Part shown: piece after piece, positions 23,985 through 42,932 of the stretch
Numbering within the stretch: the first letter of the stretch is position 1
Layout: every line of letters starts with the position of its first letter
Assembly (NCBI RefSeq): GCF_000472665.1
Contig: NZ_AXAC01000026.1
Location: forward strand, 1 to 64,000
From: Acetobacterium malicum subsp. dehalogenans DSM 11527
Lineage (GTDB): Bacteria; Bacillota; Clostridia; Eubacteriales; Eubacteriaceae
DNA length: 64,000 bases
Reading direction: 5' to 3'
The notes under the pieces: generated by a model
What the model was told of the DNA's origin: nothing
The model's input: only the letters and a program-made list of their open reading frames with translations
Databases searched by the model: none
Made by a program: the position numbers and the translations under genes

Positions 23985-24064
23985 GCAGCCGGAGCCACCG
24001 TGCGGTGGTATCACGGTAAACGTGCCATGTTTTAAACGAAATGATACCCCGACAAGGAGATGAA

Positions 24065-26083
24065 ATGAAAAAAAATAATGCGATTCAAAAACTGGCCCTG
24101 GTGATGGTTGTCCTGGTGCTGGTCAGTTTCACTGGCTGTGCCAATTCACAGGCCGGAAAAGCAGTTAAACCGAGTGAGACTGCGGACTTTTATAGCGCCA
24201 TTAATTATGATTTGCTGGCGGAAAAGACGATTCCGGCAACCGAAGGAGAATGGGACTACTTTTATGAATTAGATGAAAAAACATCGGGCCAGCTACAGGG
24301 GATTGTCAGTGAGTTGGCAAACAGCGGCAAAACCTATCCCCAAGGTAGCAGTGAGCAAAAAATAAGCGATCTGTATGCCTGTGCCATCGATCTTGACACA
24401 CGCAACGCCCAGGGTCTGACCGCGGTGACACCGTATCTGGAAAAGATTGAATCAGCCCGGAATCTCGATCAGTATCTGGAGGGACTGAGCGACCTGTCGG
24501 CCATCGGGGAGTCCAGCCTGATTCGCTACGGTTATTATCAGGATGATATGAATTCGGACGCCTTGATGGTGGGCTTTGAGTCGATGGATGCGTTAATCGG
24601 CAAAGAATACATGGAAGACCCTTCGATGCAGGAATATTGCGACGCCTATAAAGGGTATATCCAGGATATGCTGGTGCTCAGCGGTGAGGATAAAGAGACC
24701 GCCGGGAAAAATGCCGAAGCAGTTTATGCCTTTGCCAGCGCAGTGGCTGCCCAGGCCTTGGCACCGGAGGAGTTTTATGACCCGGAGCGCTACTATAATG
24801 TCTATAGCTATGATCAACTGCTGGCTCTTTATGGCAATATTAATATGGCGAAGTATCTGGCCGCCCAGGGGCTTGGCAGCGAGGATCACTACGTGGTCTT
24901 TGAGGTGGAGGCGATCAATCAGATCAATACGATGTTGACTGAAGAAAACCTGCCGGTGCTGAAAGAGTATACGAAATTTGTCGTCTTAAATGATTTGGCC
25001 GACTATGCTCCGATTGCTTACCGGGATCTTAAACTGGAGATGGCCATGAAACTGGATGGCTCAACAGAGAAAAAAAGCGCCGAGCGGCTGGCCTTTGACG
25101 AGGTGGAAAGCTTTCTGGAATGGGAATTTGGTAAGATCTATGCCGGAAAATACTTTAATGAAAAAGCCAAGCAGGATATAAAAACGATGGTGGCGACGAT
25201 CAGTGAAGAGTACAAGGCCATCATCAACGCTCAGGATTGGATGAGCCCGGCGACCAAAGCCAAAGCGATTCTGAAGCTGGATACCATGGATTTAAAAATT
25301 GGTTATCCCGATCAATGGCCAACCATTGGCGATACGCTCCAGGTAACCGCACCCCAAGACGGCGGCACTTATCTGGCCAATGCGCTGGCCCTGATGAAGG
25401 CGACCCGACAATATGACTATGATGAATATAAAAAAGGTGTCAACCGGGAGCAATGGTACATGGCACCCCAGGAGGTTAATGCCTACTACAATCCGGCCAA
25501 TAATGAAATCGTCTTTCCGGCAGCCATCTTACAGGCCCCATATTTTGATGAAAATCAGAGTAATGGCAAAAACCTGGGTGGCATTGGCGCCGTCATTGCA
25601 CACGAAATCAGTCATGCCTTTGATAAAAGCGGCTCGTTATATGATGAAAAGGGCAATTACAATGTCTGGTGGACGGAGGCCGAGTATCAAAAATATGATG
25701 AACTGTCCCAGAAAATCATTGACTATTATGGGAACTATACCATTTCGACCGGAGAGTCGGTTAATGGCACCCTGACCCTGTCAGAAAACATTGCCGATCT
25801 GGGGGCCTTGACCACGGTGACCGCGGTGGCACAAAAACAGGGCGAATCCCTGACCGATGTTTACAGCAGCTGGGCTACGATCTGGGCCAAACTCTCAACT
25901 CCGGATCTGGAAAAGAATTATTTGTTGACCGATGTCCATGCCCCGGCGGCAGTTCGGGTCAATGCCGTACTCAGCTCAATTGATGCATTTTATGACAGCT
26001 ATGGGATTAAAGAAGGCGATAAAATGTATGTTGCGCCCGATGACCGGGTGGCGATCTGGCAGACAAACACAACGAATCATTAA
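24065..26083 (+). CDS. M13-family zinc metallopeptidase lipoprotein (neprilysin/PepO-like)
   Basis: 672 residues from ATG 24065 with AAGGAG upstream; the frame opens earlier at 24041 without a site. A lipoprotein signal with lipobox SFTGC puts Cys at 24. The N-terminal M13 lobe has EGEWDYFYELDEKTSGQL. The catalytic lobe has NAYYNPANNEIVFPAAIL, zinc motif VIAHEISHAFDKSG, and ENIADLGAL giving the third zinc ligand. It should degrade peptides outside the cell at the membrane. Full family length, no breaks. Confidence 0.93.
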   Translation: MKKNNAIQKLALVMVVLVLVSFTGCANSQAGKAVKPSETADFYSAINYDLLAEKTIPATEGEWDYFYELDEKTSGQLQGIVSELANSGKTYPQGSSEQKISDLYACAIDLDTRNAQGLTAVTPYLEKIESARNLDQYLEGLSDLSAIGESSLIRYGYYQDDMNSDALMVGFESMDALIGKEYMEDPSMQEYCDAYKGYIQDMLVLSGEDKETAGKNAEAVYAFASAVAAQALAPEEFYDPERYYNVYSYDQLLALYGNINMAKYLAAQGLGSEDHYVVFEVEAINQINTMLTEENLPVLKEYTKFVVLNDLADYAPIAYRDLKLEMAMKLDGSTEKKSAERLAFDEVESFLEWEFGKIYAGKYFNEKAKQDIKTMVATISEEYKAIINAQDWMSPATKAKAILKLDTMDLKIGYPDQWPTIGDTLQVTAPQDGGTYLANALALMKATRQYDYDEYKKGVNREQWYMAPQEVNAYYNPANNEIVFPAAILQAPYFDENQSNGKNLGGIGAVIAHEISHAFDKSGSLYDEKGNYNVWWTEAEYQKYDELSQKIIDYYGNYTISTGESVNGTLTLSENIADLGALTTVTAVAQKQGESLTDVYSSWATIWAKLSTPDLEKNYLLTDVHAPAAVRVNAVLSSIDAFYDSYGIKEGDKMYVAPDDRVAIWQTNTTNH

Positions 26084-26360: not shown

Positions 26361-28514
26361 ATGAATGAAAATAACCATAACTGGTGTATTGAAGAGCAAC
26401 GACTGAAGGAAACCATTGAAGAAGCCAGGGCACAACTTGATGATGCGTTGAAAGCGAATGAGAAGAACCGGGAAATGATCCAGGCGGCCAAAAAAGAAAT
26501 CCGTGAAAATACTTCCCATGGCATTGGCAATCTCTGGGGTTCCGATGGCTTTGAAGCGCTGGTTGAATTGAGCCAGGCGATGGCTCCGGTGACAGAACGA
26601 ACGGCCCTATATGAATTTACCGAAGCCAAGATCACCAAGCTTCGGGGCATTCTTGACACGCCTTATTTTGCCCGGATTGATTTTTGTTTTAGTGATGGCG
26701 AGCAAACCGAACCAATCTATATTGGTCACCATTCACTGAAAAAAGAAAACGCCTATAAAATGCTGATCCATGACTGGCGGTCACCGGTTGCCAGCGTTTT
26801 CTACCGTTTTGCCCCGGGGGATGCCTGGTATGATGCACCGGTTGGTCGGATTGAGGGTAAGCTGCTGTTAAAACGCCAATTTGAAATCAAAGATGGCCAT
26901 CTGGATTTCTTTTTTGATGCCGATCTGCAGGTCTTTGATGAGTTTCTTAAGAAGCTCCTGTCCAGCAATACCTCGCCGAAAATGAAAACCATTGTCGAAT
27001 CGATCCAGCGGGATCAGGATCTGGTGATTCGGGATATGGAAAACGATGTGTTGATTGTTCAGGGCGTGGCGGGCAGCGGCAAAACCTCAATAGCCCTGCA
27101 CCGGGCCGCCTATCTGATGTACCAGGGTTTATCAGATCGTCTTCAGGGGCGGGAAATCATCATTGTCTCGCCCCATAAACTGTTTGAACAGTACATTGCC
27201 AACGTGATTCCCGAACTGGGGGAAGAAAATGTCCGGACACTGGTTTTTGATGAAATCATTAAGGATCTGATCGATAAAAAATTTGAAACAAAGAACGTTT
27301 TTCTGGAACGGGTTTTATCAAATGGTCCTCAGAGCCAGCTAAAAAGCGACAGCATGGCATTTAAGGCCTCGGCGGATTTTATCAAAATTCTGGATCGTTT
27401 TATTGATGATATTCCCCAGCACTTAATGAACATCCGGGATATCCGCTATAAAGGTGAGACGATTTTTACCCGGGCCGAAATCATCAGCCGTCTGCAAACG
27501 AACCCCGATACGCCCTTAAAAACCAAACTGGGCTATCTGGAAGAGGCGATCAATGAAACGGTCTATGGAAAATGGCGACGTCCGCTTAAAAGCTCGGTCC
27601 GGAATGAAATGATGCGCTTTGCCGAAATCGATGCCTTGAATCTTTATGCCCAGCTGTTTGAGAATGACGGTTACTTTTTTAAAATTGCCGCGGGGATTGC
27701 CCTGCCGGAGGGGATCCGCAAAATGCTGGCGGTGACCAAACGAAATCTGATCCACCATCACTTAAACTATGATGATGCCGTTGCCCTGGCATATCTGAGC
27801 TTAAGGCTGTTTGGAGCAAAAGAATACGCTACCATCAAACAGGTGATCATCGATGAAAGCCAGGATTATTATCCCCTCCATTATGAAATCCTGAATCGGT
27901 TGTTTTTAAAGTCCAAGTTGACGATTTTGGGGGATATCAATCAGACCCTGCAAAAAAATGAAGATCTCAGCTTTTATGAAGCGATCGCAAAGCGCCTGAA
28001 CCGCAAGAAAAGTGCCCTGGTGACGATGAACAAGAGCTACCGTTGCACCAGCGAGATTTTACGTTTCAGTAAACAGTTCATCGATGATGCCATCCCGGTG
28101 GAGAGCTTTAACCGCAGTGGGGAAGAACCGGTGTTGCTGGGTGCGGCCGATACCGAAAGCCTGGTGGAAAAACTTTGTGACACAATCAACCAGTGTCAAA
28201 CGGCGGGTTACCAATCGATCGGGCTGATTGTAAAAACCCAGAAAAATACCATGGTGCTTTTTGAGGCATTAAAGAAAAAAATGTCGGTCAATCTGATCCG
28301 GCATCAGACGGTTGTTGAGATTGAGGGCGTTTCGATCATGCCTTTGTACCTGTCAAAAGGTCTGGAGTTTGATGCGGTGTTGATCTGTGATGTCAGTGCT
28401 GAGAATTATCACAGTGAGGCTGATAAACGGTTGCTTTATATTGGCTGTACCCGGGCCCTGCATCGGTTGTATCTGCTCTGGGAAGGCCAACCGAGTCCCC
28501 TGCTAACCGATTAA
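26361..28514 (+). CDS. helD: HelD-like UvrD/Rep-family RNA polymerase recycling ATPase
   Basis: 717 residues. The N-terminal about 60 residues are a charged coiled coil. A HelD-specific segment follows (PYFARIDFCFSDGE, YIGHHSL, LIHDWRSPVASVFYRF). Then Walker A GVAGSGKTSIALHRAAYLMY lies near 235, with IIDESQDYYPLHY as the DExQ box and a C-terminal KGLEFDAVLICD motif. HelD proteins use ATP to pull RNA polymerase off DNA and nucleic acid. The arrangement of domain pieces rather than a plain UvrD order supports HelD. Single gene. Confidence 0.9.
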   Translation: MNENNHNWCIEEQRLKETIEEARAQLDDALKANEKNREMIQAAKKEIRENTSHGIGNLWGSDGFEALVELSQAMAPVTERTALYEFTEAKITKLRGILDTPYFARIDFCFSDGEQTEPIYIGHHSLKKENAYKMLIHDWRSPVASVFYRFAPGDAWYDAPVGRIEGKLLLKRQFEIKDGHLDFFFDADLQVFDEFLKKLLSSNTSPKMKTIVESIQRDQDLVIRDMENDVLIVQGVAGSGKTSIALHRAAYLMYQGLSDRLQGREIIIVSPHKLFEQYIANVIPELGEENVRTLVFDEIIKDLIDKKFETKNVFLERVLSNGPQSQLKSDSMAFKASADFIKILDRFIDDIPQHLMNIRDIRYKGETIFTRAEIISRLQTNPDTPLKTKLGYLEEAINETVYGKWRRPLKSSVRNEMMRFAEIDALNLYAQLFENDGYFFKIAAGIALPEGIRKMLAVTKRNLIHHHLNYDDAVALAYLSLRLFGAKEYATIKQVIIDESQDYYPLHYEILNRLFLKSKLTILGDINQTLQKNEDLSFYEAIAKRLNRKKSALVTMNKSYRCTSEILRFSKQFIDDAIPVESFNRSGEEPVLLGAADTESLVEKLCDTINQCQTAGYQSIGLIVKTQKNTMVLFEALKKKMSVNLIRHQTVVEIEGVSIMPLYLSKGLEFDAVLICDVSAENYHSEADKRLLYIGCTRALHRLYLLWEGQPSPLLTD

Positions 28515-28949
28515 AGGGAGGTATCGGGGGATGCCGTGATTTCGGTCAAGTCGGAGGGATGGCTTAATGGTCATCACTTCGGCTTATTTTTTTGCCCAAA
28601 CGGCGATAAAATCTTTCCGTCGGTACCATTAAATGATACAATAAATCCATAAGAATCGATTAAAACAATGATTTGTAATTGTGAATGTCCAGCACAAACG
28701 GAATAGCAGAGTACCCCAGATATTTGGTGATAGGAGTTTGCCATTAAACTTTTTATGAATCCACGTAGTTATATATGCTACAAAAAAATTCGTGAGTATT
28801 CTTTATTTGATACGCATTAACCGTTTACGTAATAAGCGAAACGTTACTTTGTCATAGAATTCACAATTATTGAGGATACATTAAGATACTAATACGTAAA
28901 ACACGGAACTTTAAAAAACAACAACCGACAAAAGAAAGGAATTCATATA
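28515..28949. other. AT-rich intergenic region before the AAA ATPase gene
   Basis: It holds the repeat at 28585-28662, described separately. A weak hairpin-like stretch after helD ends in a T-run at about 28587-28593. No ORF or structured RNA recognised in the rest. Base composition falls towards the AT-rich gene that follows. Confidence 0.5.
28585..28662 (+). repeat. AT-rich intergenic repeat, copy R1
   Basis: TTATTTTTTTGCC, then CGATAAAATCTTTCC, then ACCATTAAATGATACAATAA and ATCC. The same order of blocks recurs at 46345-46423 and 61971-62050. The TACAAT could be a promoter -10. Confidence 0.75.
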
Positions 28950-31538
28950 ATGTCAGTATATCAAGATATCTTAAATTGGTCGCAAGACAGGCAAGCATTT
29001 GTTCAAGATGCACTAAGAAGACTGATAACATCATCAGCACTTACACAAAACGATATTGATGAACTTGTACAATTAGTGAAAAAAGAATGTGGCGACTTGT
29101 CGATTTCTATAAATGCGATTCCGCTTGACAATAGTCATATACCTATATCAACTGTAACAAATGGAGACTGTCCAAGATTAATTAGTCTAAGTAATCCTAT
29201 AAATATTTGCGCTTTGCATAATCAGGGAAATTTGCAATTTTCAAATACGGGTTTGACTGTTGTTTATGGAAATAATGGCTCTGGAAAATCAAGTTACTCA
29301 CGCATTTTAAGAAAATTTTGTTGGAGTAGAAATCCTGATATTACACTTAAGAAAAACGTTTTCAACCCATCAAGCAGCCAACAGCAAGTTGATTTTGTCA
29401 TTGAAAGAAATGGCTCGAATGATAGTTTCACTTGGACTGAAAGCAGCTCAAGGAATTCTATTCTCAATTCAATTTTTGTATTTGATAACGAATGCGGAGA
29501 TGTTTACATCAACAACGAAAATCCCACCGAATATAAACCTGTTGGAATTGATATTTTAGAAAAATTGATTTCAACTTTTGGAATAATTTCACAAACTTTG
29601 GATTCGTCTATCGCTTCGTACATTACGCAAAAACCTACATTACCTCATAGTATGAGTCAAACAAATATAGCTCAATGGTATGAAACAATTGAAAATTTAG
29701 AACGAGTTAATGTTGATTCACAAATTCAATTTATCAAAATGGACACCATTAGAAAACAAGAACTTACAAACTTAACAACAGCGCAAAATCCCCAACAGGA
29801 TATTACAAATTTAACCGATCAGCTAAAACGAATTGACGGCTACATTCGACAAATAGCGCTAATTGAAGCATTATTCAACGAACAGAACATAAACGAACTA
29901 AGAGCAAATAGAAACAAATTTGACAGTGTATACCATGCATATCAAATTGCAACAACCGAATTACAAAATATGGACACCCTAGACGGATTTGGAACAAATC
30001 CTTGGAGAACGTTATGGGAAGCCGCAAAAAAATATGCACATAGTTCAAATCTTTCGGATGGTCAGAACTTTCCATCTTTGATATCTTTACAAAAATGCGT
30101 GTTATGTCAACAAGAACTTGACGAAACCGCACAACAGAGAATGTTAACATTTAATAAGTTTGTATTAAATGATGTTTCAACGCAGTTGAGTTCAATTGAC
30201 TTGACAATTCAACAAAAATTGAGCTCATACAATTCATTAGTCGTTCCGCCATATGAAAATCTTACTGAATTAGAACAAGTAATACCAAACTTTAAAGACA
30301 ACTACATTCGATTTGCTAATTCAATTACAATATTAAAAAATTCAGTTATCGCATTTTTGCAAAACGGTGGCAACCTAAACGTCAATTTACAAACTATGAC
30401 ACCAAGCATAAAGGCACTAGTTCCAAGTATTAATTCAAAGATTGAACAGTATAAGCAGCTTTGGAAAAATAGAAACGCTTTTATTTCTGAACTAGATGAA
30501 CTTAAAACAAAAGAATTTTTGTTCAATAACAGGACTATAATTCTTAAATACTTCGACGAATTCAAATACAAATCTTGGATATGTCAGTGTCAATCGAAAC
30601 TTGCGACAAACGGAATCTCACGTAAAATTGGCGAGTTGATGGGAACCCAAGCAGTGAGTTTACAGCACCGAGAATTTATTAACCATCTTAACTTCTTTAA
30701 TATTGATTTAGCTAGCAAAGTTCTGATTTCGAAAACAAGAACAAGCCAAGGAAATACATATCAAAGATGTAGTTTAAATGGCATCAACGAATCAATAAAT
30801 TCCATTATGAGTGAAGGTGAACAAAAAATCATTGCCTTGTCAAATTTTCTTGCAGAATGTACGATTGAAAATCGTCTGAATACTATCGTATTTGACGATC
30901 CGGTTACATCTTTAGATTTAGATTATAGAGATTTGATTGCGACTAAAATAGTTCATTTATCGCAAAACAGACAAATAATAATTTTCACTCATGACTTATC
31001 ATTTTTACGATTGCTTATAGATACGCATAAAGCAATCGAAGGCACACACTGCAAAATTATAGGTATTGACAAATACAACGGCATTAGCGGTATTGTAACA
31101 GACGAAATTCCATATTTGGCGAAAAACGTTCAAGAAAGAGTGAATTCAATTAGCAGGATCTTGAAAGAACACGATTCACTTGATTTGACTGATTCGCATG
31201 GTAGAGAAACCAAGCTTGATTCGGCACGAAAAAGATTTCGAATGTTATTAGAGCGTTCTGTTGAAGAAATTTTATCTAACAAAACTTATGAACGTTTTAG
31301 TAAAAATATACATTTGAAAAAAGGCAATTTATCAAGTTATATAGTTACCGAACAAGAAGATGTTGATTTTCTTTTAAATTTATTTAGCAAGTATTCTATA
31401 ACAGAGCATGATGGAGGAATATCAACAATTCCACAGCTACCAACTAAATCTGAAATTGAACAAGACATCAGAAGTTATTCAACTTGGAAAGACAAGTTTA
31501 AGCTTAAGTTGAATACATTCCTAGCAACATACAATTAA
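28950..31538 (+). CDS. AAA_13-type ATPase with zinc-hook CxxC, RloC/PrrC-like
   Basis: 862 residues; RBS AAAGGA. ABC-type ATPase head: Walker A GNNGSGKS at 107-114, signature SEGEQ at 621-625, Walker B TIVFDDPVTSLD at 645-656 and H-loop FTHD at 679-682. Between them is a long helical region with CVLC at 383-386, like the zinc hook of Rad50 and RloC. The C-terminal domain has RMLLE at 764-768 and a His at 820 in SITEHDGG. Anticodon nucleases PrrC and RloC use an R-xxx-E plus His set, so a tRNA-nuclease role is possible but not shown. The gene is much more AT-rich than its neighbours and has no partner in its operon, both suggesting transfer. Alternative: SMC-like defence ATPase without nuclease. 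Confidence 0.75.
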   Translation: MSVYQDILNWSQDRQAFVQDALRRLITSSALTQNDIDELVQLVKKECGDLSISINAIPLDNSHIPISTVTNGDCPRLISLSNPINICALHNQGNLQFSNTGLTVVYGNNGSGKSSYSRILRKFCWSRNPDITLKKNVFNPSSSQQQVDFVIERNGSNDSFTWTESSSRNSILNSIFVFDNECGDVYINNENPTEYKPVGIDILEKLISTFGIISQTLDSSIASYITQKPTLPHSMSQTNIAQWYETIENLERVNVDSQIQFIKMDTIRKQELTNLTTAQNPQQDITNLTDQLKRIDGYIRQIALIEALFNEQNINELRANRNKFDSVYHAYQIATTELQNMDTLDGFGTNPWRTLWEAAKKYAHSSNLSDGQNFPSLISLQKCVLCQQELDETAQQRMLTFNKFVLNDVSTQLSSIDLTIQQKLSSYNSLVVPPYENLTELEQVIPNFKDNYIRFANSITILKNSVIAFLQNGGNLNVNLQTMTPSIKALVPSINSKIEQYKQLWKNRNAFISELDELKTKEFLFNNRTIILKYFDEFKYKSWICQCQSKLATNGISRKIGELMGTQAVSLQHREFINHLNFFNIDLASKVLISKTRTSQGNTYQRCSLNGINESINSIMSEGEQKIIALSNFLAECTIENRLNTIVFDDPVTSLDLDYRDLIATKIVHLSQNRQIIIFTHDLSFLRLLIDTHKAIEGTHCKIIGIDKYNGISGIVTDEIPYLAKNVQERVNSISRILKEHDSLDLTDSHGRETKLDSARKRFRMLLERSVEEILSNKTYERFSKNIHLKKGNLSSYIVTEQEDVDFLLNLFSKYSITEHDGGISTIPQLPTKSEIEQDIRSYSTWKDKFKLKLNTFLATYN

Positions 31539-31546
31539 AAAAATAG

Positions 31547-31575
31547 GTACACAAGGGGACGGAGGTTTTGTGCGC
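31547..31575. repeat. Short flanking repeat, left copy
   Basis: GTACACAAGGGGACGGAGGT then TTTGTGCGC. It matches 37307-37334 except for four substitutions and one missing base. It contains a CACAA/TTGTG inverted pair. Both copies lie just outside the TerB-BrxD-helicase operon. Sequences of this kind are common intergenic palindromes in Clostridia. Confidence 0.75.
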
Positions 31576-31719
31576 TTCCTGGCATGGCGACAGCAGCCTT
31601 GCAGGTTGTAGTCGCAAGCGTCATCGTTAGGATACCCTTGCTTACTCAAAGGGACGGTGGTAATATGCACCTTCCCCTAGTCAACCGCTCAGATTTAAAA
31701 TCCAGAAAGAAGGCTTATC

Positions 31720-33720
31720 ATGAGTAAAACAGCTCCAAAACTCCCCGGCACAGGCATGCGGATTCTTTCTTTTGTGCCCGTGATTAATTGTTTTGTAATA
31801 ATCTACCTGGGCATAAGTTATGCTGAAAAGTTGACGCTTATTCTCGGTGGTGCCTATTTTTTAATTTCCCTGTTTTTCCCGGATATTTCGCCGCTGATCT
31901 GGCTTGTCGTCGTGATTCACTATATCATTTTCTATAGGCAAATTAAAAAGAAAATGGTGGAGGTTAGAAAAGTGCCATCAGAAAATACCACCGTCAAACA
32001 GATTAAAAATACGCTGCCCGAAAAGCAAATCTTCTCAGATATAACCCTATCAGGTAAAGTGGAAAATAAACAAACCATTCCAGAAAAGGGTTCTACAGCA
32101 ACGATCCCCTTTACGGTATCGGTAACCTATCTTAATCCCCATGAAGAATTTTTTGAGGATATCAAAAAATATGCTGATAAAAAAGGGGCAGAAACCATTT
32201 TCGTACCCTTTATGTCCTACTGGCCGTCCTATCAAAGCATGTCAGGTCCGCAGCGAAAATGGTATTTTTACTGGCGCTCTGAAATAAGAAAGAAAAACTA
32301 TCTTGATACTGATTTATCTTACATTTTTATCTACATTTATGAATTATTAAACGGGGTTGGATATCAAACACCCGATGAAGGCTACACCCTGCTGCTGGAA
32401 ATCTGGGAAGCCTATCGGGAAGCTTTTCCCAAACTGAATAATTATCTGTATGACTGGTCCTTTGACTTTGCCTATCTAAATAGAATTGAGCCAAGCTTTG
32501 CAAATTACGAGTCTTCTTTTCATAAGTCCTCCTATGTAACGGATACGATTATTGAACAGCATCGTCAGGATGTGCCGCTTAAAATTAGCTTTGAACTGGT
32601 TGACGCCTTATGTGATTACTCCATAAAAGGTAGCAAATTTTATCAAAGCGGCTATCATGAATTGATGAAAGAGGCGATTCCCCGGATTGTCTCACTGGCG
32701 GATGCTTTTTTAAGGAAAAAAAGCCAGCAGGGGCTTTTGGAAACCTTCGGCCCCGAACAGGCAGTCACCAAAGAGCGTTATCTGTACAGAAGTGCCCTTT
32801 GTCCCCAGGCCAATCAGACCATTTTTGTTACGATCAAAGAATATTCTTCAGCGCCGCAGTTAAGTAATTATGTTAACCAGCTCGTCCGTTTTGGGGAAAA
32901 TACCCTGCGTGAGATTTATGGAACGAAAGGGCGGTTGCGGGGCATTGCGATCGATGAGGAAACCGGAAATCTGATCGCTTCTTTTCTGAAAAGAGAATAC
33001 GGATTAACAGAAATCGAAGAAAACAAAGGGGACAAACCGGCGAAGCTTGAACTGAATTTTGAGGACATCAATGATCTGCGTAAGCAGTCCGATGCCGTTC
33101 GCTCAATTTTACAGGTGGAAGATGCGGCCGGCGAAGAAATGGTAGCGCCAACGGAAAAAATATTATTAACCGAAGTCGAAGAGTTTATCACCATTTACAA
33201 AGCCCTTTCTGAAAATGAACGAGCTTTTCTTAAAAAGCTTTATGAGTCGGAGTACGAAGCGGAGTTGATGCCAGTCGATACCCAAACAATTTCTGCAATC
33301 AACCGACTGGCGGACCGTTATTTACAAAATGACTTAATCAGCGTCGAAGGCGATCAGATGATTATCGAAGATGACTTCAGAGACGAAATTGATTATCTGT
33401 TCAAAAATCCGCCTGAAATTGAAGTGGTTAAAGAAAACCAGGCAGATTCTGATAAAACCCTGTTACCGGAAAATCTTCAGGAATTTGTCACAGAACTATT
33501 GCCGGAGCAGCGGCAAAGCCTGATTGCTGTTCTGACCCTTAAAGAACCTGAAATTGAACTGGAGCGAATTGCCGAAGAGACAATGACGATGCCGGAATTA
33601 CTAATAGATGACATTAATGCTCTGGCAATCAATATCTTGGGTGATATTATCATTGAGACGCAGCTTGAGGTTGTCGCGGAGTATGCGGTTATCCTGAAAA
33701 AATCATTAAGAGGAGAATAA
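31720..33720 (+). CDS. Membrane-anchored TerB-domain protein
   Basis: 666 residues; RBS AGAAGG. The N-terminus has two to three hydrophobic segments (about 14-33, 38-55 and 58-74), then a linker. Residues about 160-350 fit TerB_N, with QRKWYFYWRSEIRKKNYLD, YIFIYIYELLNG and a SFDFAYLNRI segment. Residues about 460-660 are helical, acidic and TerB_C-like. TerB proteins belong to Ter-linked stress and anti-phage gene sets. The gene is first in a three-gene operon, with four bases before the BrxD-like gene. A membrane anchor on the TerB protein suggests that it places the ATPase and helicase at the membrane (inference). Domain limits are approximate. Confidence 0.78.
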   Translation: MSKTAPKLPGTGMRILSFVPVINCFVIIYLGISYAEKLTLILGGAYFLISLFFPDISPLIWLVVVIHYIIFYRQIKKKMVEVRKVPSENTTVKQIKNTLPEKQIFSDITLSGKVENKQTIPEKGSTATIPFTVSVTYLNPHEEFFEDIKKYADKKGAETIFVPFMSYWPSYQSMSGPQRKWYFYWRSEIRKKNYLDTDLSYIFIYIYELLNGVGYQTPDEGYTLLLEIWEAYREAFPKLNNYLYDWSFDFAYLNRIEPSFANYESSFHKSSYVTDTIIEQHRQDVPLKISFELVDALCDYSIKGSKFYQSGYHELMKEAIPRIVSLADAFLRKKSQQGLLETFGPEQAVTKERYLYRSALCPQANQTIFVTIKEYSSAPQLSNYVNQLVRFGENTLREIYGTKGRLRGIAIDEETGNLIASFLKREYGLTEIEENKGDKPAKLELNFEDINDLRKQSDAVRSILQVEDAAGEEMVAPTEKILLTEVEEFITIYKALSENERAFLKKLYESEYEAELMPVDTQTISAINRLADRYLQNDLISVEGDQMIIEDDFRDEIDYLFKNPPEIEVVKENQADSDKTLLPENLQEFVTELLPEQRQSLIAVLTLKEPEIELERIAEETMTMPELLIDDINALAINILGDIIIETQLEVVAEYAVILKKSLRGE

Positions 33721-33724
33721 AACG

Positions 33725-35059
33725 ATGGCACCAACAATTAGCCGCCGAGAATCCGGCGCATTAATTAATTCACTGACCGCCGGCGTGGTACCCAGAATTG
33801 GATTGCGCCATATTGCTGTTGGCCGGAAAAATGAAGTAAACGCTTTTTTGAACGATATGAATACCATCGAAGATGGTGGCGCATCTTTTCGATTAATATC
33901 GGGTCAATACGGAAGCGGTAAAAGTTTCTTGCTGCAGATGATTCGAAATAACGCCATGGACAAGAACTTTGTTGTTGCTGATGCCGATCTTTCGCCGGAG
34001 CGGAGGCTGACTGGTTCGAAAGGTCAGGGGCTTTCAACCTATCGGGAATTATTACAGCATCTTTCTACCCCGACCCGGCCGGATGGCGGATCGTTGGAAG
34101 CCATTCTGCAAAAATGGATTATGGGGCTGCAGTCTGCCGTCAGCAAAGAAAGTGGTTATCGACCGAATGAACCTCAACTTGTTGGTGCGGTCAGTGAGCG
34201 GATTGCAGAAACGATGATGGAGTTATCTGAGCTGGCCTATGGTTTTGCTTTTTCCAATGTCATTGATTCCTACTGGCGGGGGATGAAAACAGGCGATGAC
34301 GATCTCAAACAAAATGCTTTGCGCTGGTTGAGAGGGGAATACGCGACCAAAACTGAAGCCAAAAAGGATCTGCCGGTTGATTGCATCATTGAAGATGCGA
34401 GCTGGTATGAATTTTTAAAACTGTTTGCCGTCTTTGTCAAAAAAGCGGGATACAAAGGCTTGTTGGTCTTTCTGGATGAAGGAGTTAATCTCTACAAAAT
34501 TCCCCATAAACAGGCGCGAGACAGCAACTATGAAAAACTGCTCACTATTTTTAACGACACAATGCAGGGGAAAGCCCAAAATATTGGCGTTTTTTTTAGC
34601 GGAACCCCGCAGTTTATTTACGATGAGCGGCGTGGACTTTTTAACTATGAGGCCCTGCGGACACGGCTCGAAGACAACCGCTTCAGCAGTCAGAATTTTG
34701 TTGATTTTACCACCCCGGTAATTAAATTGAACCAGCTCTCACCGGAAGAACTTTTTATTCTGATGGAACGTCTTTGCGAACTCCATAGCGCTCATTACAA
34801 TTATGATTGTACGCTTAGTGAAAATGAATTGACCGTGTTTTTAAAGACCGTGGTTTCTCGTTTGGGGGCTGACCAGCTACTGACGCCCCGCGAAATTACC
34901 CGGGATTTTTTGGGATTATTAAATATCCTTTATCAAAATTCGGGGACGAGCTTTGATTCTTTAATGAATGAACAAAATTACGCCGTAAAAAGTGCTGAAA
35001 GCGACCCCGAAACAATCAGCAGTGATCATGATGATCTGTTTGCCGAATTTGACATATGA
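33725..35059 (+). CDS. brxD: BrxD-like ATP-binding protein (DUF2791)
   Basis: 444 residues; RBS AGAGGAG. The N-terminus SRRESGALINSLTAGVVPRI and RHIAVGRKNEV is characteristic of the BREX type 2 ATPase BrxD (DUF2791). Walker A is GQYGSGKS at 60-67, followed by VADADLSPERRL. The Walker B-like LLVFLDEG is near 245, and a sensor-like FFSGTPQF follows. BrxD accompanies BrxHI in BREX type 2 loci. Here it is next to a TerB gene and a BrxHI-like helicase, and none of the other BREX genes is in the window. It overlaps the helicase gene by four bases (ATGA). Function unproven outside BREX. Confidence 0.85.
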   Translation: MAPTISRRESGALINSLTAGVVPRIGLRHIAVGRKNEVNAFLNDMNTIEDGGASFRLISGQYGSGKSFLLQMIRNNAMDKNFVVADADLSPERRLTGSKGQGLSTYRELLQHLSTPTRPDGGSLEAILQKWIMGLQSAVSKESGYRPNEPQLVGAVSERIAETMMELSELAYGFAFSNVIDSYWRGMKTGDDDLKQNALRWLRGEYATKTEAKKDLPVDCIIEDASWYEFLKLFAVFVKKAGYKGLLVFLDEGVNLYKIPHKQARDSNYEKLLTIFNDTMQGKAQNIGVFFSGTPQFIYDERRGLFNYEALRTRLEDNRFSSQNFVDFTTPVIKLNQLSPEELFILMERLCELHSAHYNYDCTLSENELTVFLKTVVSRLGADQLLTPREITRDFLGLLNILYQNSGTSFDSLMNEQNYAVKSAESDPETISSDHDDLFAEFDI

Positions 35060-37245
35060 GCAAGACAGCCTTTGAACGATACGCACCCTTTATCCAGGAA
35101 TACATCTATCGAAAAAAGTGGACGGATTTGCGGGAAGTCCAGGTGGAGGCCTGTGAGGCCATTCTGGACACCGACGACCATGTCATTATTGCTTCGGGAA
35201 CAGCATCGGGAAAAACGGAAGCCGCCTTTTTTCCAATGCTCACGCAATTGCAGCAGCACCCGTCAAATACCATTGCGATTATGTATATCGGTCCGCTAAA
35301 GGCGCTAATCAACGATCAGTTTGAGCGTTTGAGCGATTTGCTGGAAGAAAGTGACATTCCGGTTTGGCCCTGGCATGGGGATGTTTCCCAATCCCTTAAA
35401 AAACAGGCCTTAAACAAAGCAAAAGGTATTCTCCAGATCACGCCCGAATCCCTGGAGGCGCTGATCATGCGGCGACCTGGAGAAGCCGCCCATTTGTTTG
35501 CCGATTTACGTTTTGTCGTAATTGATGAAATCCATGCCCTGATGGGTGTCGACCGTGGCTTGCAGGTGATCTGTCTGTTAAGCAGGCTGAAAAAACTGAC
35601 AGGCTGCAAACCCAGAAGAATCGGGCTTTCGGCGACCCTGAATGATTATCAGCCGGCGATGACGTTTTTATCGGCCGGCACCAAAAGAGAAACCATTCCG
35701 GTTGGAATTAAAACCCATCAGCGAACCGTGTTACTTGCTGCTGAAAGTTTTGTCCTGCCCAAGGAGGATGCCAAAAAAGATGATGTTTTAGCTGCTTATA
35801 ATGATTTTATCTATGAGCATTGTCATCACAAAAAGTGTCTGATCTTTACAAACAGTCGGGCAGGTGCGGAAGAAGTGATCAATGATATGAAAGCGCTGGC
35901 CGTTAAAAAGCATGAACGGGATGTCTTCTTTGTCCATCATGGCAGTGTTTCAGCGATGTTGCGCCACGAAGCCGAGGCCGCCCTCAAAGAACAGCAGGGG
36001 CCGACGGTCACCGCGGCGACTTTGACGCTGGAGCTGGGAATTGATGTCGGTGATCTGGATTCGATTATTCAAATTGGGGCACCTTTTAGCTGTTCAAGTT
36101 TTGTTCAGCGGCTGGGCCGGTCGGGCAGGCGCACCGGAAAATCTAAAATGCTGTTTGTCAATCAGTTTGAGGAAGATCGACACAGTCCCTTTGATATGAT
36201 CCCCTGGGATCTGATTCGGTCAATTGCCGTGATCCAATTATATCTGGAAGAACGCTGGGTGGAGCCTTTTGAAGTTAAGCCAAAACCTTTTAGTCTGTTG
36301 GCTCATCAGACTTTAAGCACCCTTTTTACTTATGGGGAACTTAAGCCTCCGGATCTGGCTCAAAATGTCCTGACCATGCCACCTTTTGCGGGCATTGATC
36401 AAAATGAATACCGTTTACTTTTGCAAAAAATGATTACCGACGATTATCTCCAGCGCATGGATTCCGGTGAAATAATTATCGGCTTAAAAGGGGAAAAAAT
36501 CGTTCAGCATTACAGCTTTTATGCGGTCTTTCAGGATGAGGAAGTTTACCACGTTTTTAGTCAAAACGGCGAAATCGGCACTTTAAGTACTTGCCCGGCA
36601 GTGAGTGAAGTGTTTATCCTGGCTGGTCGCAGCTGGCAGGTTTCTTCGATTGACGAGGATTGGAAAGTGATTTATGTCAAACTGGTGAAAAACAATCGGC
36701 TTCCGAAGTGGACGGGGGATCATTCCGGTTTGATCCATACCAGAATTGTTGCGCGGATGAAAAAGGTTTTACAGGAAGAAATGATATATTCCTATCTCCA
36801 GCCGGGTTCACAGGAGCTATTAAATAAAACCCGTGATTTTGTGAAAGACAATAATCTTTTAAACTGGGCGTTTATTCCCGGCAGTACGGATTCTTTTTAT
36901 CTGTGTCCCTGGGTGGGGACAAGGCAGCTTTTTACCATTAACAATCTGCTTTTATGCGGTCTGAAAGATGAACTGCAGATTTACTCGATCCGGCAGGGAA
37001 AACATCACCTTGAAATTCGAAGTGATTTAAGCATTGAGGATTTTAATGCGGTTCTTAAAAAAGCACAGATTGATATTAATAACCCGGAGGCGGTTATTTC
37101 CGAACAACAGCAGCTAAGGATGGATAAATATGACTATATGGTTCCGAAAGAATTGCTTAGAGAGGCGTTTTTGAGAAATGTGCTGGATGTTAAAGGTTTG
37201 CAAAAGATATTGACGGATATTTGTGGAAAAACACACACGGGTTAA
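35056..37245 (+). CDS. brxHI: BrxHI/Lhr-like DEAD/DEAH-box helicase
   Basis: 729 residues; its ATG overlaps the brxD stop. Superfamily 2 motifs in order: Walker A SGTASGKT at 43-50, PLKALINDQ (Ia), TPESLEAL, DEIH in VVIDEIHAL, LSATL (III), FTNSRAGAEEV (IV), ATLTLELGIDVGDLD (V) and QRLGRSGRR (VI). The C-terminal 350 residues are Lhr-like, probably winged-helix and beta-rich. It should be an ATP-driven DNA or RNA translocase. Translational coupling to BrxD suggests that the two act together. Typical length for BrxHI. Confidence 0.87.
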   Translation: MSKTAFERYAPFIQEYIYRKKWTDLREVQVEACEAILDTDDHVIIASGTASGKTEAAFFPMLTQLQQHPSNTIAIMYIGPLKALINDQFERLSDLLEESDIPVWPWHGDVSQSLKKQALNKAKGILQITPESLEALIMRRPGEAAHLFADLRFVVIDEIHALMGVDRGLQVICLLSRLKKLTGCKPRRIGLSATLNDYQPAMTFLSAGTKRETIPVGIKTHQRTVLLAAESFVLPKEDAKKDDVLAAYNDFIYEHCHHKKCLIFTNSRAGAEEVINDMKALAVKKHERDVFFVHHGSVSAMLRHEAEAALKEQQGPTVTAATLTLELGIDVGDLDSIIQIGAPFSCSSFVQRLGRSGRRTGKSKMLFVNQFEEDRHSPFDMIPWDLIRSIAVIQLYLEERWVEPFEVKPKPFSLLAHQTLSTLFTYGELKPPDLAQNVLTMPPFAGIDQNEYRLLLQKMITDDYLQRMDSGEIIIGLKGEKIVQHYSFYAVFQDEEVYHVFSQNGEIGTLSTCPAVSEVFILAGRSWQVSSIDEDWKVIYVKLVKNNRLPKWTGDHSGLIHTRIVARMKKVLQEEMIYSYLQPGSQELLNKTRDFVKDNNLLNWAFIPGSTDSFYLCPWVGTRQLFTINNLLLCGLKDELQIYSIRQGKHHLEIRSDLSIEDFNAVLKKAQIDINNPEAVISEQQQLRMDKYDYMVPKELLREAFLRNVLDVKGLQKILTDICGKTHTG

Positions 37246-37529
37246 TCACCGGTGCCAGGCAGTGCGGCCGAGCTAGGTCGGATCATATAGGAGGCTTCCG
37301 TACTCAGTATACAAAGGATGGAGGTTTTGTGCACTATTTATACAGCCGATTCAGTGTAAGTAAGAGTAACCCCAGGCTAGTATTCCTGAGTTATGACGTT
37401 TCATATAGGCGTTGCAAATCTCATCGGGTAAGGTATGAGACGAAAGTTCTGTGAGCCAAGCCAAAATGCTTATGGAATTGACCTATTGTCTTAACTTTTT
37501 GGGGCGATTTTTTCCTGCTTTTTTCTTGA
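37246..37529. other. Non-coding stretch after the defence-like operon
   Basis: It holds the right flanking repeat (37307-37334). It also has an undefined stretch around 37430-37460 with TATGAGACGAAAGTTCTGTG, which resembles a hairpin arm found in group II introns but lacks any clear intron core. No ORF recognised. Confidence 0.4.
37307..37334. repeat. Short flanking repeat, right copy
   Basis: GTATACAAAGGATGGAGGTT then TTGTGCAC, matching 31547-31575. It lies 62 bases after the helicase stop. Confidence 0.75.
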
Positions 37530-37688
37530 TCAGAGACCGGGTGTAACGTACACTATTGGAATTCGATTCTGCTTGCCGGTGATGTCCCGGAACCGGTTTT
37601 GATTGACTGCATCCAACTGGCTTATCAGACCGTTTTTATGAAACTGACAAAAAAGAAACAGCGGGAAATTGCGGAAAGTCGGCGTTAG
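37530..37688 (+). pseudogene. C-terminal remnant of an MmcQ/YjbR-family protein
   Basis: Frame reading to the TAG at 37686-37688 gives VHYWNSILLAGDVPEPVLID then CIQLAYQTVFMKLTKKK. This matches the C-terminus of MmcQ/YjbR (CyaY-like fold) DNA-binding proteins, which have W-N-S, D-G-D-V-P and a final LxKK run. A TGA at 37527-37529 closes the frame upstream and the N-terminal two thirds are absent. Confidence 0.65.
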
Positions 37689-37729
37689 TGCCCCAGCGCT
37701 AGGTTCACTTGATTTAAAGGAGAAACGAT

Positions 37730-38215
37730 ATGGAAAATGAGAATCGCCCAGTTATTGTCTTTTTTTCAAAAGATGGAAATACCAGAAGCGGTGCTAAACG
37801 CTTAAATGAGCGTCTTGGTGGTAAGATCATTGAACTGCGGGAACAGAAAAACGGAAATGTTTTGCAGGCGCTGTTTAAAAAAGGTTCTAAACTCCAGGGC
37901 AACCCCTGGCAAGAAATCGCTGCTGCGACGGATGTTTATTTAATGCAGCCGATTTGGGCCAGCAATGCTGTACCAGCGATGAATACCTTTCTTCAAAACG
38001 CTGATTTTTCAGGAAAACAGGTTACCATCATCACGTTTCAGCAATTTGCCGACCTGAAAAACAGTGACAAAGTTCATCAGGAAATTGCCGCAGCGGTTAA
38101 ACAGCGAAACGGACAGATCATCGGAACCCATGCATTTGTTGGCGGGAAAATGGGCCACTGCGCCGCGGAAAAATTGATTTATGATCAGATCGATTCGATC
38201 GCACGACAAGACTGA
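37730..38215 (+). CDS. Flavodoxin-family protein
   Basis: 161 residues; RBS AAAGGAG. The FMN-phosphate loop is FFSKDGNTRSGAKRL at about 11-25, the second loop is MQPIWASNAVPAMNTFL, and the last part has GTHAFVGGKMG. These fit the flavodoxin/WrbA-like fold. It should carry electrons or act as a small FMN reductase in the cytoplasm. A remnant of an unrelated gene lies just upstream; the gene itself is complete. Confidence 0.85.
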   Translation: MENENRPVIVFFSKDGNTRSGAKRLNERLGGKIIELREQKNGNVLQALFKKGSKLQGNPWQEIAAATDVYLMQPIWASNAVPAMNTFLQNADFSGKQVTIITFQQFADLKNSDKVHQEIAAAVKQRNGQIIGTHAFVGGKMGHCAAEKLIYDQIDSIARQD

Positions 38216-38375
38216 TGTAAAGGCCCGATCACCAGGCTACGGGTCTTATCCAAAAGGTAATTAGCTACACCCTCAAGAAATTTAAATGAGAATCGCGTGC
38301 GATTACAAGAAGGTTAAGGCCATGCCCAGTATTCAAACCAAACCAGGTCGGCGAAAGGATAATGAGGAGCAAAAA

Positions 38376-38867
38376 ATGAAGATTCGACATACGCAAATTG
38401 AAGATATCCCGGGGATTGAAGAAATTTATACCCATGCCCGTACCATGATGACCGCGACGGGAAACCCCCATCAATGGGTTGATGGTTATCCCCAACCAAG
38501 CCTGATTGAAGATGACATCAAAAAGCAGATCAGTTATATCTGTGAAATTGATGGTCGGATTGAGGCGGTGTTTATGCTACTGCAGGAAGGCGATCCTGAC
38601 TATGACCAGATTTTTGACGGTCAGTGGCGAAATGATGAACCGTACGTTGCCATCCATCGTGTGGCCAGTGCTGGCAATGTGGCCGGACTAACCGGGGCGA
38701 TTTTTGACTGGTGCGAAAAGATCTGTCCCAATCTCCGGATTGATACTCATCGGGACAACCGGATCATGCAACGTGTTCTTACTAAAAATGGTTTTACTTA
38801 TTGCGGCCTGATTTATCTCAAGAGTGGGGCCGAACGGCTGACTTATCAGCGTGTCGGCAAGAAGTGA
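38376..38867 (+). CDS. GNAT-family N-acetyltransferase
   Basis: 163 residues from ATG 38376 with GAGGAG upstream; the frame's earlier ATG at 38286 has none. The N-terminal IRHTQIEDIPGIEEIYTHAR is a GNAT beta1-alpha1. Middle strands are IDGRIEAVFMLLQ and YVAIHRVAS, and the C-terminal is IDTHRDNRIMQRVLTKNGF. The acetyl-CoA loop is weak (NVAGLTGAIFDW instead of Q/RxxGxG/A). Substrate unknown. Convergent with the CMD gene. Confidence 0.82.
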   Translation: MKIRHTQIEDIPGIEEIYTHARTMMTATGNPHQWVDGYPQPSLIEDDIKKQISYICEIDGRIEAVFMLLQEGDPDYDQIFDGQWRNDEPYVAIHRVASAGNVAGLTGAIFDWCEKICPNLRIDTHRDNRIMQRVLTKNGFTYCGLIYLKSGAERLTYQRVGKK

Positions 38868-40463: not shown

Positions 40464-42932
40464 ATGAAAAAGATTAGAATTTTCGCAGCCGTTTGTTTGG
40501 TGCTGGCGGGGTCGCTATTTACGGCCACCAGTGTGTTTGCTCAGGATAGCAGCAATTGGTTAAAAAATGAGGGCGTCTGGGGAACGGATTCGGCCAGCTG
40601 GTCGGGGCTGCCCGCGTTGGCAACGGGGACGGTCAATAATGCGGTTTCCACTGCCGGTGGGCCGGTGATTATTACCCAACCCCAGGATGTCCACTTTACG
40701 GTTCCCCAACCGGCCAATATGACCATTGTGGTGGCCAACCCGGAAACCTGTGATTTTCAATGGCAATGGCTATTGCAAAAAGAAGGGCAACCTGATGAAT
40801 GGTACGATTTTATTGGCGAAGGCTCCCAACGGGCCACCCTGGAAAACAAAATAAGTAGTGGCCAGCTGGATGATATGGTGGTTCGTTGTGTGGTGACCAG
40901 CAAAACCGATGCTTCCAAGCTGACTGTCTCCAACCCGGCAACCTATCTCCTTGACAGCGGTTCACCGGCCTATTATGCTACCCTGGGCGACCAGATCGTT
41001 TTAATGGGACAGACCATTAATCTGACCGGTGGCGGTCAGGCCAGCTTAAGCGCCGATGGTAAAACCCTGACCCTGGACAATGCCAAACTGACCTATAGCA
41101 ACGACTATAATAGTTTTTTGAGCGGCGTCGGCATTCAGTATGCGGCTACAGCCGATGATGCCGCCAATGCGGTAACAATCGAGCTAATTGGCGATAATAC
41201 CATTGTTGCCGATACCGAAAAGAGTTATCAGGATACGGATAAGGTCAAAAAGAGTTTCGCCGGTCTTTATTTTCATGCCATCAGTGGCGAGTCTAACGAC
41301 CGCATGACCTTGACTATTGGCGGTACCGGCGCACTGCTACTGGACAGCCCCAAACAGACTCCCGAGGTCTTCGATTTTTACGGACTTTATGCCGAATCCT
41401 TTGTTAAGCTTGGCGACAGTGCCAGGGTTACCATCAATAATAAATACATTGGCGCCATTTGTGCCGATTTGGCCATGGCTGAAAACACGGCCCTGACCGT
41501 GACCGGAGAAGTCAACGCTCTGCAGCTGTTGGCTTCCTATAATGCGGTGGGAAATTTCACCATGAAGCCGGGAGCGGTGCTGGACGCCAAAGCCAAAATG
41601 GGTACCGTTGTGGCCTTAAAAGGTGACGGGCAATTTACCGCTGACGGGGCAACAATCACGCTGACCGGGGCAATGAGTGCCACCGACCAACCGATCAATG
41701 AGGATCCCATTGTCGTTGCCGGCGTGACCACCGACCGCAGTGACTCGGCAGAAGAAGGTGCCGGTAATATGACCCTCACAAACTGCAGTCTGGTGACCAG
41801 TCTCAGCAGCAATCACCAGCAGGTGATCTTCCAGCAGGGCTTACGTGTCGCGGGCAATCTGATCATTGAAGGCGGCACTGTCACCGTCACGTCAGAAATC
41901 CTCGATGAAGCGGTCAATAGCCAGGGAGTTATTGGGATCCAGGGGGCGAATATCAACCTGAAAAACAATGCGGTAACCGACATTAAGGTCAATGGCGATA
42001 ACATGGCCATTGGCTGTATCGCTAATGATCAAATGAGGATCACCGATGCCGGATTAACTGCCCTGATTGACAACAGTGCCCAAAAATTCAGCGCCACCGC
42101 GACCGAAGCCATCGGCATTGGTGCCCAGCACATGGAAATATCAATGAGCGCCGGCCAGCAACAGGTGAATGCCCAAATTTTAGGCTACGACAACGGCCTG
42201 CCGCTCGTTAATTTCCTGGATTCCAGCGATACCCGGCAGGACTACAACCCCAGCTATCAGCCGGAGCGCCTGACCCTCAGTGACAAGGCCGGGTTTGTAC
42301 TACCGACAGCGACCGATGCGGTGATTAATCAGGCCAGCCTGGAGGCCCATCAGGTCACCGGAACCCCGCTTAAAAAATATGCTGTGTATGAAGCGGTCTA
42401 CAACAAAAATGATACCACCAAAGGAGCCCAGCAGGTGACGATTGCCGCCACGGCTACCGGGAACGTCAGTTACAGTACCCAGATCCAGAATATTGGCTGG
42501 CAGCAAGCCGTTAAAAATGGTGCCGTCAGCGGCACCACCGGCGAATCCCTGCGTCTGGAAGCGATCAAAATAAATCTTGATGGTTTTGCGGATTCTGGCA
42601 GCATTGAGTACAAAAGCCATATTCAGAACAAGGGCTGGGAATCGAGCTTTAAAAGTGCCGGAGAAATCAGTGGAACCATTTCGGAAGGGCTCCGACTGGA
42701 AGCGATTGAGATCCAATTAACCGGGGCCATGGCTGAAAAATATGATGTGTATTATCAGGTTCATGCCAAGAATTTTGGTTGGCTGAATTGGGCGAAAAAT
42801 GGTGCACCGGCCGGAACCGAAGGACAATCCCTGCGTTTAGAAGCGATTCGGATTCAGGTTGTTCCCAAAGGAACGGTTGTTAGCAGTGAAGGAATCAATC
42901 CCAAAGCCTACATTACTTTGGCTGATTTATAA
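40464..42932 (+). CDS. Large secreted protein with three C-terminal ChW repeats
   Basis: 822 residues; RBS ATGGAGGT. A signal peptide ends near SVFAQD at 27. Residues about 60-180 contain an Ig-like segment (VDHFTVPQ-type strand, FQWQWLLQKEGQPDEWYDF). Residues about 180-640 are beta-rich, with GKTLTLDNAKLTYS-type stretches suggesting a beta-helix surface domain. The last 150 residues carry three ChW repeats, each with GW about eight residues before a GxxSGTxGxSLRLEAIxI core. ChW repeats are found on clostridial surface proteins. Shares this tail with the subtilisin at 55876-57570. Bracketed by the two 190-bp leader repeats. Function likely surface binding; unproven. Confidence 0.82.
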   Translation: MKKIRIFAAVCLVLAGSLFTATSVFAQDSSNWLKNEGVWGTDSASWSGLPALATGTVNNAVSTAGGPVIITQPQDVHFTVPQPANMTIVVANPETCDFQWQWLLQKEGQPDEWYDFIGEGSQRATLENKISSGQLDDMVVRCVVTSKTDASKLTVSNPATYLLDSGSPAYYATLGDQIVLMGQTINLTGGGQASLSADGKTLTLDNAKLTYSNDYNSFLSGVGIQYAATADDAANAVTIELIGDNTIVADTEKSYQDTDKVKKSFAGLYFHAISGESNDRMTLTIGGTGALLLDSPKQTPEVFDFYGLYAESFVKLGDSARVTINNKYIGAICADLAMAENTALTVTGEVNALQLLASYNAVGNFTMKPGAVLDAKAKMGTVVALKGDGQFTADGATITLTGAMSATDQPINEDPIVVAGVTTDRSDSAEEGAGNMTLTNCSLVTSLSSNHQQVIFQQGLRVAGNLIIEGGTVTVTSEILDEAVNSQGVIGIQGANINLKNNAVTDIKVNGDNMAIGCIANDQMRITDAGLTALIDNSAQKFSATATEAIGIGAQHMEISMSAGQQQVNAQILGYDNGLPLVNFLDSSDTRQDYNPSYQPERLTLSDKAGFVLPTATDAVINQASLEAHQVTGTPLKKYAVYEAVYNKNDTTKGAQQVTIAATATGNVSYSTQIQNIGWQQAVKNGAVSGTTGESLRLEAIKINLDGFADSGSIEYKSHIQNKGWESSFKSAGEISGTISEGLRLEAIEIQLTGAMAEKYDVYYQVHAKNFGWLNWAKNGAPAGTEGQSLRLEAIRIQVVPKGTVVSSEGINPKAYITLADL

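Follow-up and report, generated by a model that had tools for sequence, protein, structure and literature searches.

The 64,000-nucleotide stretch of Acetobacterium malicum subsp. dehalogenans DSM 11527 analysed here (the window) carries three tightly packed genes on its + strand between positions 31720 and 37245, the first two separated by 4 bases and the second and third overlapping by 4 bases. They encode a protein with TerB_N and TerB_C domains, an AAA+ ATPase of the BrxC/BrxD family and a superfamily 2 (SF2) helicase resembling BrxHI (Table 1). This packing and these families had been recognised in the initial annotation, made from the sequence alone, and Pfam agrees: TerB_N (3.8e-40) and TerB_C (1.7e-13) both exceed their cut-offs in the first protein, BrxC_BrxD matches the second at 1.3e-163, and the third contains DEAD (1.1e-28) and Helicase_C (6.8e-14) with a WH_Lhr match below cut-off. 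The best PADLOC matches of the three proteins are, respectively, SngA, SngB and SngC of the Shango anti-phage system. SngA is the sole PADLOC match of the first protein at 0.001, the second scores 621.6 bits with SngB against 182 bits with BrxD (5.3e-54), and the third 777.7 bits with SngC against 445.4 bits with BrxHI (8.7e-134). The order sngA-sngB-sngC and the common strand are those of Shango, and the same order is found in relatives. The motifs GQYGSGKS and LVFLDE of SngB and DEIH, SAT and QRLGRSGR of SngC are intact; the Walker A motif of SngC, ASGTASGKT, was located by eye, having been missed by the regular expression. Judged by its gene content, order, motifs and profile matches, the operon is almost certainly the Shango system.

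The initial annotation had suggested a separate, membrane-tethered anti-phage complex. A wholly new system was considered and dropped, as PADLOC names all three proteins, and a reading of the trio as an unknown system fails because PADLOC and published phage data together identify it as Shango. What survives of the suggestion is that the complex is distinct from BREX, is probably anti-phage and has a predicted tether; the system itself is already known, and only the host and the anatomy of SngA are new here. According to PMC10250203, Shango was found in a defence hotspot of PA14; cloned from PA14 into PAO1 it gave a modest 10-100-fold plating change for many phages, though not all, and strong protection in liquid culture, and the E. 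coli system, as cited there, inhibited two phages about 10-fold. By analogy, the operon in the window may be assigned an anti-phage role. A 2026 review (PMC12926258) places Shango among systems of unknown mechanism, and a search of open-licence papers turned up none that describes a membrane anchor in Shango or solves how the system works. Taken as a whole, the locus is very probably a chromosomal Shango of a lineage whose SngA bears a predicted three-helix anchor, which has moved within the genus as a unit of operon size, was lost once, and occupies a variable site rich in defence genes.

Table 1 Features of the Shango locus (positions in the window)
Feature	Position	Strand	Details
AAA_13-type ATPase, upstream neighbour, candidate defence gene PDC-S06	28950..31538	+	PADLOC 5.2e-158; Pfam AAA_13; 32.6% GC
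Left repeat copy	31547..31576	+	30 bases
Decayed repeat copy in sngA leader	31647..31668	+	3 mismatches to core pattern
sngA	31720..33720	+	666 residues; TerB_N/TerB_C protein with predicted membrane anchor; PADLOC SngA 1.9e-81
SngA residues 11-83, three predicted membrane helices	31750..31968	+	hydropathy; model helices 11-34, 37-52, 54-83
SngA residues 85-137, predicted disordered linker	31972..32130	+	predicted local distance difference test (pLDDT) <50 over 85-137
SngA residues 140-436, helical TerB_N core	32137..33027	+	predicted model
SngA residues 483-567, first winged-helix-like (TerB_C) domain	33166..33420	+	VIA-align
SngA residues 586-666, second winged-helix-like (TerB_C) domain	33475..33717	+	PADLOC profile end and VIA-align
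sngB	33725..35059	+	444 residues; BrxC/BrxD-family AAA+ ATPase; Walker A GQYGSGKS; PADLOC SngB 2.1e-187
sngC	35056..37245	+	729 residues; SF2 DEAD/DEAH-type helicase, BrxHI-like; PADLOC SngC 3.6e-234
Right repeat copy	37307..37335	+	29 bases; counterpart is deletion end point in sister G309
Stretch between sngC and flavodoxin-like gene	37555..37680	+	recurs in three relatives: L068, L070, L151

The SngA family has matches in 16 of the 299 phylum genomes, among them the one from which the window comes, and in none of 14 control genomes. Ten of the 67 genomes of the order matched, six of these within the window's genus (19 genomes); the Shango of G304 and G306, both in this genus, belongs to a different lineage. 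At the loci of the best 80 of 539 SngB relatives, fetched from another collection, SngA lies directly upstream in 75, SngC directly downstream in 69 and both in 65, a contig end explaining 8 of the 15 loci that lack the full trio. A partner is missing by the thresholds used at L188, L230, L203, L204, L221 and L223, and at L199 the SngC frame is present with a larger overlap than the rule permitted. Archaeal trios occur on a contig of a Methanosarcina metagenome-assembled genome (L165), whose SngB is 77% identical and falls in the window's SngB clade, and on a Natrinema plasmid (L257); the closeness of the former to the window's lineage suggests either transfer between domains or a mis-binned contig. 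SngB relatives are present on 686 of 72,556 PLSDB plasmid records (Klebsiella 449, Salmonella 144; 542 predicted conjugative), some of the weak matches being annotated BrxD, and in all three plasmid regions opened (L255, L256 and L257) the TerB, ATPase and helicase genes are consecutive. On these matches Shango would seem to be frequently carried by enterobacterial plasmids, and their number suggests that the question of its mechanism has practical weight. No match to SngB was found in 50,697 phage records.

The ATPase and the helicase had been labelled BrxD and BrxHI, and the TerB protein had been seen as standing in for the absent PglX, PglZ and PglW of type 2 BREX (BrxD, BrxHI, PglX, PglZ, PglW and BrxC). 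As a statement of family kinship the labels hold: by profile, SngB is kin of BrxD and SngC of BrxHI, and in type 2 BREX the genes for BrxD and BrxHI are closely linked as a pair (PMC12839542). Kinship and linkage would both suit a stand-alone remnant of such a system, in which the pair was left behind when PglX, PglZ and PglW were lost and TerB was gained. We regard this origin as hardly credible. Both proteins score far higher with the Shango models than with those of BREX, and the NCBI BrxD equivalog model gives SngB 183.3 bits, under its cut-off of 350. The trio with TerB is intact and adjacent at 65 of the 80 SngB loci, where 8 of the remaining 15 are cut by a contig end, and TerB is the usual first gene of Shango rather than a substitute for the Pgl enzymes. 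PADLOC (limits 0.001 and 1e-10) detected no PglX, PglZ or PglW among 15 large open reading frames of the window, PglX and PglW being sought without a six-frame search; the longest frame has 862 residues, as against 1400-1600 for PglW (PMC12839542), and the two other large frames at 24-43 kb encode a peptidase of family M13 and a clostridial hydrophobic W (ChW) repeat protein.

The genomic context of PglZ, which the operon, in distinction from type 2 BREX, does not have nearby, argues in the same direction. In the host's own genome a search for the PglZ family gave a match on contig C30, one below cut-off on C14 and none on the window's contig C16, which extends to 77,417 bases. PglZ exceeded the cut-off in 5 of the 16 genomes with SngA matches, lying on another contig in four and about 782 kb from Shango in G120, and in 9 of the 50 genomes derived from SngB loci, each time on a contig whose length differs from that of the Shango contig. 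The separation of the trio from pglZ that the initial annotation had anticipated is therefore borne out, PglZ being close to Shango in none of the 66 genome searches (16 plus 50 of the 80 SngB loci; the two sets may overlap, and a draft contig break between PglZ and Shango is possible). On C30 (L071, L072) PglZ stands together with BrxA, BrxB, BrxC and BrxL, and given BrxL we read this locus as a probable type 1 BREX, PglX not having been identified in the pieces scanned; that the host itself has BrxL, a feature of type 1, is a further point against a type 2 remnant. Next to these BREX genes is one whose product has HNH_4 and RuvC_III domains and is interpreted as Cas9.

Within the genus, the operon is 93.8% identical in DNA to that of G310 over 5,591 bases and 93.9% identical to that of G305 over 5,529 bases, whereas the two genes that serve as yardstick, HelD and a flavodoxin-like gene, show 80-81% and 81-82% identity to these genomes. 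Four-fold sites tell the same story against G310, with 32 of 183 differing in sngB and 90 of 225 in helD. Because the operon stands at ~94% and this two-gene yardstick at 80-82%, a recent transfer of the operon between species is well supported by sequence comparison. The sister G309 has no SngA match. What it keeps of sngA is the start, 50 bases at 96% identity that take in the ribosome-binding site and the first codons; these run directly into a copy of the right repeat and the window's right flank, and this junction is a deletion scar of Shango. Since copies at ~94% identity are present in two sisters and a remnant in a third, Shango has been both gained and lost. The left flanks are unrelated among G000, G305 and G310, from which separate chromosomal sites in the three genomes at first seemed likely; we now doubt this. 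In G305, the Shango contig and a contig with the repeat and the flavodoxin-like gene end in sequences that by eye resemble the two ends of one insertion sequence, so that the downstream site there may be the same. Also in G309 (L070:8128-8349), a 193-base piece of HelD is joined to HelD-downstream sequence at a short shared word; the HelD-side site in this genome seems to undergo repeated deletions.

The direct repeat reported on both sides of the operon is real. The left and right copies align over 30 and 29 bases with one gap and a score of 18; when the two intergenic stretches were shuffled 500 times by mononucleotide, no score exceeded 15. A 22-base core with up to 3 mismatches has three matches in the window where 0.00 are expected, the third being the decayed copy in the sngA leader, which the initial annotation does not mention. 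A 25-base core, at the same tolerance, occurs 31 times in 13 of the 19 genomes of the genus and not at all in the reversed control; in the host's own genome this pattern detects the left copy only, the right copy having an indel. Several copies lie in the Shango islands of G309, G310 and G305, and others elsewhere. In G310 a 1,440-bp direct repeat (L148:2957-4396 and L148:15938-17377; 99.65% identical), which includes a Fic gene and begins with the short repeat, brackets a 13-kb Shango island.

Copies lie on either side of the operon, at the deletion junction of G309 and, in G310, both immediately behind the block that it shares with G305 and where the island-bracketing 1,440-bp repeat begins. 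Such positions could be taken to indicate a mobile cassette whose ends derive from the repeat, with the repeat serving as att or recombination site. We judge such a cassette improbable. The block shared with G310 (31636-37226) falls short of the left copy by about 60 bases and of the right one by about 80, and that shared with G305 starts at 31698; because the shared DNA lies inside both copies, the repeat does not delimit the transferred unit. In G303 the sole copy found in the fetched stretch is divergent and 2.4 kb upstream, and other genomes have copies at a distance from Shango. Scanning of the neighbours revealed no integrase, and in the stretches fetched no copy was found flanking either of the genome's two Y1-transposase genes (which need not be RAYTs). 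The bracketing stands as a description of position and is not supported as a signature of mobility; we read the repeat as an interspersed element where recombination or deletion can take place. As a REP/RAYT element, also considered, the repeat would be expected beside a REP-associated transposase and with a stable hairpin; the transposase flanks just mentioned yielded no copy, and the three copies in the window fold weakly (hairpin z-scores of -1.3, -2.6 and -0.95). Rfam returned nothing over 28000-38500 at E up to 1. A second stretch, 28584-28662, after HelD, has matches at different positions in four relatives (L070 twice, L093, L094 and L151) and is probably another interspersed element.

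The surroundings of Shango in the genus were assessed from ten chosen neighbours, seven from G310 (L148), two from G303 (L155) and one from G305 (L154), of which seven have a PADLOC match at 0.001; this count over chosen neighbours agrees with the suggested proximity to defence genes. By PADLOC, the genes near the G310 operon include Fic, RhuM (PDC-S05), an Mrr-type nuclease, a KAP ATPase and AbiD, and those near the G303 operon a Schlafen/AlbA protein (a weak match) and a type I methylase directly upstream of sngA.

The predicted model of full-length SngA has a mean pLDDT of 82.8 and a predicted template modelling score (pTM) of 0.50. Its three N-terminal helices overlie the hydrophobic stretch, in agreement with the membrane segments that the initial annotation had proposed for the TerB protein. 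Modelled alone, residues 138-441 reach a mean pLDDT of 91.5 and a pTM of 0.83. Foldseek found no match to this TerB_N core at E 0.001 among PDB or viral models (lowest PDB E-value 0.41; highest VIA-align Z 5.9), a result that does not establish a new fold. Towards the C terminus, the VIA-align rows for residues 483-567 are mostly MarR-type regulators at Z 5-6.5, the top row (Z 8.3) being an NLR segment that we take to be a winged helix, and residues 586-666 align with LysR/MarR DNA-binding domains at Z about 5. The last domain looks doubled, as positions 448-525 of the PADLOC SngA profile, its final part, match both within 32035-33396 and at 33451-33702; a custom narrow C-terminal profile recognises the first copy poorly (independent E-value 0.13 in the window). 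The doubling, drawn from the PADLOC profile and the predicted model, recurs in G151, G303, G305 and G310. SngA would therefore, on the model, end in tandem winged-helix-like domains, predicted to bind DNA.

Among solved structures, relatives of SngC include Brr2-type helicases and YprA, as well as the ATP-dependent DNA helicases 5v9x and 7lhl (PDB), which are presumably Lhr. With Lhr-type helicases SngC shares the SF2 core, the sub-threshold WH_Lhr match and these two PDB matches; it differs in its length of 729 residues, in being encoded beside SngA and SngB, and in that its best named match is SngC. A PDB sequence search with the SngA and SngB profiles gave no match, and Pfam finds no nuclease domain in any of the three proteins.

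Membrane segments in other SngA proteins were sought by hydropathy (19 residues, mean 1.6, within the first 150 residues), a rule that misses some anchors. It flags 9 of 103 rows, an undercount, since for example the SngA of L042, with a Pfam TM2 domain, went unflagged. In a quick SngB tree of 103 sequences (no bootstrap; rows with SngB of 400 residues or less excluded) the window falls in a group of 8 with support 93; SngA is readable in 7 of these and anchored in all 7, the contig of L167 in this clade beginning 295 bases before sngB and leaving its SngA unread. Elsewhere the N-terminus takes other forms: a single helix in a Klebsiella and a Salmonella plasmid copy, TM2 in L042 and, by eye, in a haloarchaeal copy, and extra stretches of about 300-900 residues in L031, L037, L039, L161, L190, L193 and L195-L197. 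Of these, L031, L037 and L161 were scanned, and their extra stretches have no Pfam match at 0.01. The Paenibacillus SngA proteins in the sample have no anchor by hydropathy. As far as sequence comparison goes, SngA has a conserved core and an N-terminus that varies, and membrane contact seems to have been acquired repeatedly. The operon in the window shares with known Shango all three genes, their order, orientation and families, and the presence of defence genes nearby; judged against the SngA of the sample, it is set apart by an SngA with a predicted three-helix anchor and two TerB_C-type winged helices.

From this anatomy we tentatively propose a mechanism, while considering it somewhat doubtful. 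With SngA anchored in the inner membrane, incoming or exposed phage DNA would be captured by the protein's tandem winged-helix-like domains, carried on a flexible linker. SngB, as an ATPase of ORC/Cdc6 type, would load the SngC helicase onto the captured DNA; a 2026 BREX survey (PMC12839542) classes BrxD with ORC/Cdc6 ATPases and proposes a role for it in loading or activating BrxHI. Once loaded, SngC might unwind the DNA or translocate along it and so block phage DNA entry or replication, or pass the DNA to host nucleases, the hand-over being proposed because Pfam finds no nuclease domain in the three proteins. A wider version of this idea, to which we give still less weight, is that Shango in the present lineage is a membrane-docked DNA-capture machine. 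The SngA N-terminus would then be a slot for interchangeable targeting or effector parts, filled in other lineages by a single helix, TM2 or modules of about 300-900 residues, and the conserved TerB core that it adjoins might have a new fold. The same helices admit a different use, in which phage DNA is detected by SngB and SngC, and SngA, switched on by them, damages the membrane in an abortive infection. The three N-terminal helices in the window's clade would suit this, as would the other anchors elsewhere (a single helix in a Klebsiella and a Salmonella plasmid copy; TM2 in L042 and in a haloarchaeal copy); it is nonetheless unlikely, the anchor being absent by the hydropathy rule from most sampled SngA and hence not a conserved effector.

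Several observations tell against our own account of a membrane-anchored, DNA-capturing Shango. With most sampled SngA apparently without a membrane segment by that rule, membrane capture cannot fully account for how Shango works. The anchor is predicted by hydropathy and by the model, in which the helical block has a pLDDT of only about 68-82, and it lies outside the span matched by the SngA profile (residues 106-559), itself a modest match of 273 bits. The winged-helix interpretation draws on middling VIA-align Z scores, and full-length SngA has no Foldseek match in the PDB at E 0.001. As no relative was found for the TerB_N core, a nuclease could hide in it. The phage data come from the PA14 and E. 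coli systems, 3 of the 10 neighbours scanned have no PADLOC match, and 7 of the 80 SngB loci lack an adjacent SngA or SngC with no contig end as the cause. The lineage nevertheless makes the mechanism of Shango testable, through the anchor, the two predicted DNA-binding domains, the high-confidence TerB_N model and the deletion scar in a sister species. Bunzi and Dionysus also have a TerB-family protein in an anti-phage system; they differ, by description only, in that no ATPase-helicase pair is named for them in the accessible portions of PMC10952713 and PMC12926258.

Among the remaining features of the window, a peptidase family M13 protein is encoded at 24041-26083, and several relatives have related DNA close to HelD. 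Two further proteins, encoded at 40464-42932 and 55876-57570, contain clostridial hydrophobic W repeats, the second also having a subtilase domain. The recurrent stretch downstream of sngC resembles what we take to be the 3' end of a yjbR/mmcQ-type gene.

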